A stretch of DNA of 32,282 nucleotides from a virus: positions 1 through 32,282 of the IMG/VR virus record IMGVR_UViG_3300004154_000029; one strand, given 5' to 3'. Position numbers and translations under genes: made by a program. Position 1 is the stretch's first letter. Each line of letters begins with the position of its first letter. Below, one piece after another: positions 16,381 through 19,354 of the stretch. The notes beneath the pieces were generated by a model that saw only the letters and a program-made list of their open reading frames with translations, was not told the origin of the DNA and ran no database searches.

Positions 16381-16718
16381 TTATCTTTCTCTAATTGAGA
16401 TAATGCTTCTAAAATAAGTTTCCTTTGGAGTTCTGGGTTGTTTCCGCAAAGAATACAACTTCTTTTACCAGAAAAAATCTCTAAGTTATCGCCTAGCTTT
16501 TTAGCAAAATCTTTATCCATTAGTTTTTTTACGGCCTCCTCATCCTCTCTCCTTTGTTCTACCTTGGCTTGGGAGACTAATTTACGAATGTTCTTTTTTA
16601 TTTCCTCTCCAGTCTCTTTTATAGCAGCTCGTTCAATTACCGTTCCAAGTAGCTCGTTCCAATATTTATCAAATTTCTCTTCCCATACTCCTTCTATTTT
16701 CTGTGGTTTAGGGGTCAT
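16377..16718 (-). CDS. Hypothetical protein with a CxxC pair, adjacent to RNA ligase
   Basis: The protein has 113 residues. A long charged helix (EEIKKNIRKLVSQAKVEQRR, EDEEAVKKLMDKDF) precedes SGKRSCILCGNNPELQRK, a CxxC that could bind zinc. It is coupled at both ends: its ATG overlaps the TGA of the RNA ligase by four bases (ATGA), and its own TGA overlaps the next ATG. No family is recognised, but the coupling suggests it works with the ligase. Confidence 0.5.
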   Translation of the reverse strand: MTPKPQKIEGVWEEKFDKYWNELLGTVIERAAIKETGEEIKKNIRKLVSQAKVEQRREDEEAVKKLMDKDFAKKLGDNLEIFSGKRSCILCGNNPELQRKLILEALSQLEKDK

Positions 16719-17704
16719 AGCTCGTTTAGTAGGTACTTATTACTGATTGCCTTAAAAGATAATCTTTGCCCCTTGTAAGATTGTTCTACCTTTGGGCGTA
16801 TAACAATTCCCTCCCTTTCCTCGTTGATATTTAAGACACTTTTGCCTTCCGCTATTAAAAGCAAATCGTCTACAGTTTTTGGTAGAGAAAAATTATCATC
16901 TAGTATCGGGACTGTCTTTATTCCAAGCCCTCCACAAAATCCAACAAAGTCTGAGTAGTTAAGATAAAAACCTCCGATATTGTAAACATTGAAGCAATAA
17001 ATATCCTGCCCCTTTTGTTTAAGTGGGTTGCCTTGAACTCCTTCTCCTATCAGTTCGCATTGAATAGCAAAGTTGTCTAGTAGTTTATTTGCTAAGTCAT
17101 ACTGTTTAGCCAGTCTCCACTGTGTCGTTTCACCCTCTGCCAGTTCTAAGTTGCGACTACACACTCCGAATACTCCATCTTTTTTGAAATAGGTTGTACT
17201 TGTGCCGTCTAACTTTTCTGAAATGTAAAATCCAGAAAGTATCTCTGACATATTTTGAATACGCTCCTCGTCTGTCTTTGGAAGAAAAGATGGGAATGAA
17301 CCCTTGGCCTTTCCTGAAAGTTCGTGAGGTATGGGCATTTCGTATTTAATAACTCCTAGTTGTTCAGATACATCATCACCAATATCTCCTAGAATGTCAC
17401 CAACTGGCAACACAAGCCCCTGAGATAGTTGTCCTCTGAGTTTAATAGTCTTTAGCAAGATACCTTCGGTGTCTTTTCCGTCAACAATCATCTTTTTAGG
17501 GTGTTTTCCATTAAGTAAAAACTCGTACTCTGGCTTAATGGGTAAAAAGCTGTCTACTTCAAAGTACAGACACTTACTACCGACCTCAAACTCGTCTTTT
17601 TTAGATACGACCCACCAACTTCTTACTCGGACAGCTTCAATTCTATCTGCTCCCTCAATAGGTTTCTTTTCTTGTATGGTTTCAATGGTAACTAGTTTTC
17701 TCAT
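16715..17704 (-). CDS. ATP-dependent RNA ligase, DraRnl/Rnl5 type
   Basis: In this 329-residue protein an OB-like N-terminal domain (residues 1-125, WWVVSKKDEFEVGSKCLYFE) precedes the nucleotidyltransferase domain, the inverse of most ligases and a mark of the Deinococcus Rnl5 group. The motifs present are I, EKLDG (Lys164, the adenylated residue), III, CELIGEG (Glu217-218), IIIa, CFNVYNI, IV, EREGIVIRP (Glu298), and V, SFKAIS (Lys318). It seals RNA 3'-OH to 5'-P nicks. The start ATG follows TAATTAAAAACTATG, the same 15 bases as at 2859-2873. It lies 13 bp after a membrane peptide gene that itself follows rtcB. Confidence 0.85.
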   Translation of the reverse strand: MRKLVTIETIQEKKPIEGADRIEAVRVRSWWVVSKKDEFEVGSKCLYFEVDSFLPIKPEYEFLLNGKHPKKMIVDGKDTEGILLKTIKLRGQLSQGLVLPVGDILGDIGDDVSEQLGVIKYEMPIPHELSGKAKGSFPSFLPKTDEERIQNMSEILSGFYISEKLDGTSTTYFKKDGVFGVCSRNLELAEGETTQWRLAKQYDLANKLLDNFAIQCELIGEGVQGNPLKQKGQDIYCFNVYNIGGFYLNYSDFVGFCGGLGIKTVPILDDNFSLPKTVDDLLLIAEGKSVLNINEEREGIVIRPKVEQSYKGQRLSFKAISNKYLLNEL

Positions 17705-17823: not shown

Positions 17824-19023
17824 TTATCCTTTAATCACACCAAGGGGGCGAAGTTCAACTAAAATCTTAACTAAGTCTTTTTGGTTATCCATTACTACGT
17901 CAATATCCTTGTAAGCACCAGGAGCTTCTTCTAAGTCCTGTTGAGTCCTCGGTTTACCCAAGACACCCTCCATCTTGGCTTGCTCTTCTTCAAGATTAAG
18001 ACTCCTGATTGCTTCTCCTCTGCCCATTTTCCTACCAGCTCCATGACTACAAGATTCGAAAGACTCTTTGTTTCCTAGACCCTCAACAATATATGATTTA
18101 GTTCCCATTGAACCAGGAATAATGCCGACAGTTCCTTCTCTTGCCAGAGTTGCCCCCTTGCGATGGATAAACACATTCTTTCCAAAGTGATTTTCAAGTG
18201 AAGCGTAGTTATGAGCGATATTTATCATAGGGTCATGCTCTACCCCAAAGATATCTAATATTCTATCCATCATCAGTTTCCTATTAGCCAATGCAAAGTC
18301 TACGCAGTAGTTCATTTCAGTCATGTATTCTTTTCCCAACTGACTGTCCACTGGTAGGAAAGCCAACTGATGTTCTTTTGGAACGCTAGTATGCCATTTT
18401 TCGTTCAACTCGTTAGCTTCTTCATTGTATTGATTGGCTACTTTGTATCCTAGGTTGCGACTGCCTGAGTGAATCATTACCCAGATATGTCCATCAGAGC
18501 CTTTCTGAATTTCAATAAAATGATTACCACCACCGAGGGTTCCAAGCTGATACAATGAGTTTTCAAACTCTTTGCTTATCTTGGGGAATGTGTCAGGGCG
18601 GAAAGAATCGAACTTTCGGTCTCCTGGTTCCAAACCAGGCAGGGTGACCAACTCCCCCACGCCCTGTGGCATATATTTTATATCTTGTTTCTTCTGATGG
18701 TGTCCAAATCCAACTGGCACTTGTTTCCTAATTTCTCCCATAATCCTTTTTAGTTCGTCTTGGGATATATCGGTTAAAGATGTTTTTACGGCACACATTC
18801 CACAACCGATATCTACACCCACGGCATTTGGAATAATTACTCCCTCTGTGGCGATGACACCACCTATGGGCATACCATATCCCTGATGAGAGTCTGGCAT
18901 AATAGCCACATGGCGATAAAGAAATGGAAGATTGGCGAGATTTTTGGCTTGTTCTAAAGCTCCGTCCTCAATGTCATTTAACCAAAGTTTAATAGGTTTT
19001 TTTTCAGTTGATATTACTTTCAT
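17824..19023 (-). CDS. rtcB: RtcB RNA-splicing ligase (GTP-dependent, 3'-phosphate), with embedded tRNA-Pro
   Basis: RtcB joins 2',3'-cyclic or 3'-phosphate to 5'-OH RNA ends, as in tRNA repair. Metal and guanylate ligands are all present: Asp71 and Cys74 (VGVDIGCGM), His168 (GGGNHF), His185 (HSGSRN), His271 (AHNYAS), and His327, the guanylylated residue (SCSHGAGR). I chose ATG 19023 (399 residues); an upstream ATG at 19050 overlaps the previous gene and adds nine non-conserved residues. Residues about 120-144 (QGVGELVTLPGLEPGDRKFD) are encoded by a complete tRNA-Pro cloverleaf in the same strand and frame. Motif content says the enzyme is intact. No archease gene is seen nearby. Confidence 0.9.
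   Translation of the reverse strand: MKVISTEKKPIKLWLNDIEDGALEQAKNLANLPFLYRHVAIMPDSHQGYGMPIGGVIATEGVIIPNAVGVDIGCGMCAVKTSLTDISQDELKRIMGEIRKQVPVGFGHHQKKQDIKYMPQGVGELVTLPGLEPGDRKFDSFRPDTFPKISKEFENSLYQLGTLGGGNHFIEIQKGSDGHIWVMIHSGSRNLGYKVANQYNEEANELNEKWHTSVPKEHQLAFLPVDSQLGKEYMTEMNYCVDFALANRKLMMDRILDIFGVEHDPMINIAHNYASLENHFGKNVFIHRKGATLAREGTVGIIPGSMGTKSYIVEGLGNKESFESCSHGAGRKMGRGEAIRSLNLEEEQAKMEGVLGKPRTQQDLEEAPGAYKDIDVVMDNQKDLVKILVELRPLGVIKG
18593..18666 (-). tRNA. tRNA-Pro(UGG) embedded in the sense strand of rtcB
   Basis: Reading the minus strand from 18666, all arms fit. Acceptor CAGGGCG pairs perfectly with CGCCCTG. The D-stem is GGGG/CCCT (one G-U) with loop AGTTGGTCA (A14, G18G19 and A21 present). 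The anticodon stem is CCTGG/CCAGG with loop TTTGGAA (U33, anticodon UGG), then variable AGACC, T-stem GAAAG/CTTTC with loop TTCGATT, and discriminator A73. C1-G72 and A73 are the bacterial tRNA-Pro identity marks. A37 is unusual, since bacterial tRNA-Pro has G37. No CCA is encoded. The whole tRNA lies inside the rtcB frame. It is unlikely to arise by chance; whether it is processed is unknown. Confidence 0.85.
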
Positions 19024-19033
19024 GGAAGTCAAT

Positions 19034-19354
19034 TTATTTATCTTCGACAAATTTACTAATATCTATTGTTCTCTTTCTACCATTCGCATAAGTGATAATT
19101 ATTGATAAATCACTGCCATAATATCCATTTTGGTCGTTGTAACATGGAATAAAGTAACCATCTATTTTTATTCCCGAGTCCTTGATGCCTTTAACTATTA
19201 GTTTCTCTGGAAAATCGTGTGACATAACATCGGTATCTTCTAGTTGTTTCCAGTCGGCATAAACCATTTCGCAACAGTCTTGTTGGTGAAGGTCCTCCAC
19301 TACGGTTCCGTTGTCAAATTGTAATCCTTTTTCTGAAAATTTTGTTAGTTTCAT
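19034..19354 (-). CDS. Hypothetical protein with a conserved QDCCEMVYADW motif
   Basis: The protein has 106 residues. The HQQDCCEMVYADWKQLED segment is a recognisable signature of a small family of uncharacterised phage and bacterial proteins (I recall this as a DUF, function unknown). The second half is beta-rich (KIDGYFIPCYNDQNGYYGSD, LSIIITYANGRKRTIDISKF). It lies 10 bp before the rtcB start and 1 bp after the upstream gene, all on the minus strand. Three Cys residues (27, 28 and a later one) may bind metal. Confidence 0.5.
   Translation of the reverse strand: MKLTKFSEKGLQFDNGTVVEDLHQQDCCEMVYADWKQLEDTDVMSHDFPEKLIVKGIKDSGIKIDGYFIPCYNDQNGYYGSDLSIIITYANGRKRTIDISKFVEDK

Follow-up and report, generated by a model that had tools for sequence, protein, structure and literature searches.

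The central result of this analysis is that, as read from its sequence, a single stretch of viral DNA specifies on one sense strand both a complete tRNA-Pro(UGG) and 25 tolerated residues of the RNA-splicing ligase RtcB. The DNA analyzed, here called the window, is the whole 32,282-nt virus record IMGVR_UViG_3300004154_000029. Viral rtcB is recurrently paired with tRNA-Pro(UGG) carrying A37, as we show statistically, and this pairing is at its most compact in the window. The parts themselves, a phage tRNA and a phage RtcB, are ordinary; it is their union that is unusual.

A tRNA gene within the window's rtcB

The relevant features of the window are as follows.

16715..17704, minus strand: ATP-dependent RNA ligase (PHA02142 OB fold and RNA_ligase; Pfam)
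17824..19050, minus strand: rtcB, RNA-splicing ligase (Pfam RtcB PF01139, E 3.6e-115; fold match 4dwq/1uc2)
18592..18666, minus strand: 25 RtcB codons formed by the tRNA bases, QGVGELVTLPGLEPGDRKFDSFRPD (translation; insert relative to homologues; AF2 pLDDT <50)
18593..18666, minus strand: tRNA-Pro(UGG), 74 nt to discriminator A73 (ARAGORN; Infernal, 63.7 bits; 21/21 pairs)
18629, minus strand: A37 in place of the usual G37, 3' of the anticodon (sequence reading)
18630..18632, minus strand: anticodon UGG, in the loop UUUGGAA (sequence reading)

The initial annotation proposed a complete tRNA-Pro(UGG) cloverleaf in the sense strand of rtcB, and ARAGORN and Infernal agree on it. ARAGORN, run on the whole window, calls a single tRNA, tRNA-Pro(tgg), at 18592-18666 of the minus strand, and the full RF00005 model of Infernal matches 18593-18666 with 63.7 bits (cutoff 29; E 8e-12), a high score in the covariance-model check that the annotation had suggested. 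The record holds no tRNA other than this nested one. With regard to the marks of a bacterial-type tRNA-Pro, an NGG anticodon (UGG), C1-G72 and A73 are all present, and position 37 is A instead of G; these bases and U33 match the earlier description. A73 is followed by CAC, CCA not being encoded. For the unmodified transcript, the minimum-energy fold is one other than the cloverleaf (-34.9 versus -26.9 kcal/mol). Exact 23-mers of the tRNA gave no match in IMG/VR.

The rtcB ORF encodes 408 aa, and the ATG at 19023 is a likelier start than the TTG, because initiation at the TTG would make rtcB overlap an upstream ORF (19034-19354). In the 408-aa numbering, the tRNA corresponds to residues 129-153, without interruption of the frame; counted from the ATG, these are residues 120-144, as originally numbered. 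They lie in a loop after the motif LMP, the length of which varies among 80 viral homologues. The 25-residue peptide is missing from 79 of these 80, including relatives such as L002 and L035, which have a shorter, tRNA-free loop; the only homologue to have it, from a second phage contig (L003), has the tRNA as well. The earlier suggestion that the tRNA occupies a variable loop without breaking the frame is borne out, and the enzyme is left intact.

Indeed, it retains the catalytic motifs D80, C83, N176, H177, H194, H280 and H336, which do not vary across 54 aligned sequences. The AF2 model of the window RtcB has a confident RtcB fold (mean pLDDT 88.7), with 4dwq as the best solved match in Foldseek (E 1.5e-34, TM 0.81). 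Apart from the extreme N-terminus, its sole low-confidence stretch is the tRNA-coded peptide, within which pLDDT falls below 50 at residues 133-148, and the loop is predicted to be disordered. It is also unlikely that the rtcB message is spliced to remove the insert, since exact excision of 74 nt (to A73) or of 77 nt (with CCA, as in L003) would break the frame.

The ATP-dependent RNA ligase that adjoins rtcB on the same strand is the second RNA-repair enzyme of the window, an arrangement that fits an RNA-repair cassette. Close to these genes lies a calcineurin-like phosphoesterase (14446-15138, plus strand), which could be an RNA-end processing enzyme.

Recurrence of tRNA-Pro(UGG) at viral rtcB genes

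The second nested copy, in L003 (about 65% RtcB identity overall), is likewise a tRNA-Pro(UGG) (57.3 bits, CCA encoded) and shares both its starting codon in rtcB and its phase with that of the window. A third, L211, came from a scan of virus contigs for tRNA-Pro(UGG) with A37. Its in-frame tRNA-Pro(UGG) (66.3 bits, CCA not encoded) occupies another RtcB loop, flanked by LMMDNIQNIF and EPMINIAHNYA; the contig stops within rtcB and lacks the part that encodes the N-terminus. The use of two different loops implies at least two insertions into rtcB. A pattern search for a T-loop followed by GGGNHF, as at the window and L003 site, returned nine stretches and was true only in the L003 contig, and the equivalent search at the L211 site was true only in L211; when cultured phages were searched with the insert peptide, the matches listed were ordinary RtcB only. 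Among 1838 distinct tRNAs, nine are embedded in a sense ORF at a depth of at least 90 codons. For three of these, the ORF is rtcB; the frames around the other six, mostly GC-rich, were judged by eye not to represent conserved genes.

Nesting is one form of a wider association. In a viral sample chosen by rtcB (72 distinct rtcB-bearing loci, window excluded), 10 of the 12 tRNAs located inside rtcB or within 150 nt of it are Pro(UGG), versus 2 of the 60 located farther away (Fisher p 7.7e-9). The linked copies lie directly before, directly after or inside rtcB, on its strand; the majority stand free, outside the coding sequence, and CCA is encoded by most, that of L003 included. At 80 bacterial rtcB loci, tRNA-Pro was found within 150 nt in none. 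No tRNA was found within 1.2 kb of rtcB in 11 cultured phages, and the link is therefore characteristic of a mostly uncultured subset of phages. Changes between the linked and unlinked states number at least 13 on a quick tree that includes several loci chosen by their tRNA. Because the tRNA is nested in rtcB in three viruses and stands beside it in many relatives, RtcB and tRNA-Pro(UGG) seem to belong together.

Several other arrangements were observed. RtcB is the second largest of the families found beside viral tRNA-Pro(UGG), the largest being, as judged by eye, a GIY-YIG homing endonuclease-like family (start VYVAFNLVNGKTYVGQT; L142, L111, L195, L230, L282 and L283). At L007:7155-7230, another tRNA is joined to rtcB, a tRNA-Met(CAT) overlapping the final codons. 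Two rtcB-bearing contigs, L050 (120 kb) and L035 (102 kb), carry large tRNA arrays (32 and 26 RF00005 matches, respectively), and L050 has a partial RtcB N-terminal copy upstream of rtcB.

In bacteria, tRNA-Pro normally carries a G37 that TrmD methylates, and this is important both for keeping the reading frame and for charging (PMC8384417, PMC8643618). The A37 of the window was flagged from the start as odd for tRNA-Pro; it departs from the usual base, and it proved common to all 10 rtcB-linked tRNA-Pro of the rtcB-chosen sample. Among unlinked tRNA-Pro, one of four has A37 and three have G37 (p 0.011 against the linked copies, on small numbers). One linked copy, in L253, has G37, but it was retrieved by a G37 pattern.

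In the three nested tRNAs, each of the 21 cloverleaf pairs forms and 11 are changed on both sides; across 16 linked tRNAs (3 nested and 13 free), 98.5% of cells are paired and 18 of 21 pairs have changed on both sides (0/500 shuffles). The initial annotation had named a peptide sharer lacking the cloverleaf as evidence against its proposal, and none was found: in L003 the cloverleaf is retained, and its differences are paired. After random synonymous recoding, a tRNA-Pro call was kept in 211 of 20000 sequences for the window peptide and in 4 of 20000 for the L003 peptide, a rarity which argues that the peptide alone does not maintain the tRNA.

In a careful tree, the sister of the window is L002 (99/94) and that of L003 is L035 (99/93), both without insert, and a clade uniting the window and L003 is marginally rejected (AU p 0.048); in a larger, quicker tree, this clade is not rejected (p 0.89). 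The careful trees thus favor independent insertion into the rtcB of the window and that of L003. The nested tRNAs are no more similar to each other than to free tRNAs. If the insertions were separate, the paired differences may predate them, and selection on the nested RNA after insertion is therefore likely but not proven.

Possible roles of the nested tRNA

We consider it somewhat probable that tRNA-Pro and RtcB form a module, most likely a counter-defence against tRNA cleavage, which is at its most compact when the tRNA lies within the ligase gene. In the window, as its sequence shows, a tRNA-Pro(UGG) gene of the phage entered a flexible rtcB loop in frame. RNase P and 3' processing would then free the tRNA from some rtcB transcripts, and RtcB would be made from those that escape processing. 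RtcB joins 2',3'-cyclic-phosphate/5'-OH breaks. Were a putative host anticodon nuclease to cleave tRNA-Pro(UGG), RtcB could reseal it, and the phage tRNA, perhaps nuclease-resistant through A37, could refill the lost pool; the pair would be kept because both members counter the same cleavage. Probable tRNA-Pro(UGG) cleavage products of the PARIS nuclease AriB (PMC12409363) indicate that a threat of this kind exists.

It is conceivable, if unlikely, that rtcB is instead a hot spot for mobile elements, where recombination or homing-endonuclease repair recently brought a neighboring or invading tRNA-Pro gene into tolerant loops; it would have persisted only since the frame stayed open, with no special role. 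LAGLIDADG endonuclease ORFs lie just downstream of rtcB at L003:7645-8157 and L027:7287-7805 and end in a duplicate of the last ~27 residues of RtcB, and at L081:5283-5966 a truncated copy of the RtcB N-terminus (53 aa) precedes an endonuclease-like ORF, after which comes a complete rtcB. Moreover, the insert is absent from the sister sequences of the nested cases, and an open frame through a tRNA is cheap: 53% of A37-type tRNA-Pro(UGG) are open in frame 0. Such a history leaves unexplained, however, that the tRNA is nearly always Pro(UGG) with A37, that it adjoins rtcB on the same strand across the tree, and that three cloverleaves are perfect. As to the endonuclease genes themselves, the two LAGLIDADG ORFs look as if inserted at the 3' end of rtcB, bringing a replacement tail, and the L081 ORF is HNH-like by eye, with no Pfam match.

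A role in cis, with the tRNA fold staying in the rtcB message as a putative binding or cleavage site, through which RtcB would regulate itself or an anticodon nuclease would be sensed or decoyed, would suit its location, in two loops, in the message of a tRNA-joining enzyme, and the A37 class is distinct from the ordinary tRNA-Pro(UGG) present in the same genome (L003). We nevertheless find this role distinctly improbable, as the linked copies mostly do not lie in the coding sequence at all and, like ordinary tRNA genes, mostly encode CCA, as does that of L003.

Just as improbable, in our estimation, is a plain codon supplement placed in rtcB by an accident of genome compaction. The tRNA would read the abundant codon CCA, which accounts for 140 of the 252 Pro codons in 16 window genes; since CCA is the main Pro codon and the nested tRNA the only one of the 32-kb record, plain decoding help is conceivable. 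Decoding does not account for the link with rtcB in particular, nor for the separate, ordinary G37 tRNA-Pro(UGG) that the L003 phage carries elsewhere in its genome beside its nested A37 copy, which argues that the nested copy is more than a codon supplement.

Lower still we place the idea that the rtcB message is a damage-sensing tRNA precursor, in which a host nuclease directed at tRNA-Pro(UGG) would also encounter the nested tRNA and RtcB could reseal the message, ligase supply thereby being coupled to tRNA damage in a single RNA. Finally, although the record is a metagenome virus contig and a tRNA-Pro call survives in ~1% of the synonymously recoded versions of the window peptide, the probability of an assembly artefact or chance resemblance is negligible, chance being ruled out by the 63.7-bit covariance score and by recurrence on three separate contigs, L003 and L211 included, with the frame intact in each.

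Relation to known systems

The counter-defence module that we favor has partial counterparts. Phage tRNAs are a known means of escape from retrons and PARIS (PMC11555353, PMC12409363), and the likeness lies in a phage tRNA that possibly replaces a cut host tRNA. The present case differs in that the tRNA is a tRNA-Pro(UGG) with A37, located beside or inside rtcB. To our knowledge, the tRNAs that evade retrons and PARIS are ordinary stand-alone genes with no tie to a ligase gene. Phage T4 Pnkp and Rnl1 repair tRNA-Lys cut by PrrC and, as would RtcB, set a phage RNA-repair enzyme against anticodon cleavage; here, in contrast, the chemistry is that of an RtcB ligase and the tRNA is genetically coupled to it. 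The bacterial Rtc RNA-repair operon is regulated by damaged tRNAs, which signal through RtcR (PMC7790460), and so links RtcB functionally to tRNA damage. Unlike the linked viral loci, the 80 bacterial rtcB genes stand without a nearby tRNA-Pro. Genes also gain peptides from inserted structured elements in the case of the Rickettsia palindromic elements, which likewise place a structured nucleic acid in frame in a tolerant protein loop; in the window, that place is taken by a complete tRNA gene. A limited search of the open-access literature found no earlier report of the kind.

Against defences that cut tRNAs, phages are known to deploy both tRNAs and RNA ligases, two responses that are usually treated apart. 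The window offers a clear case in which a full tRNA and a protein are read from one DNA stretch on the same sense strand. The tie of A37 tRNA-Pro(UGG) to rtcB names a likely substrate of RtcB during phage infection, and predicts the existence of undescribed defences that cut tRNA-Pro(UGG).
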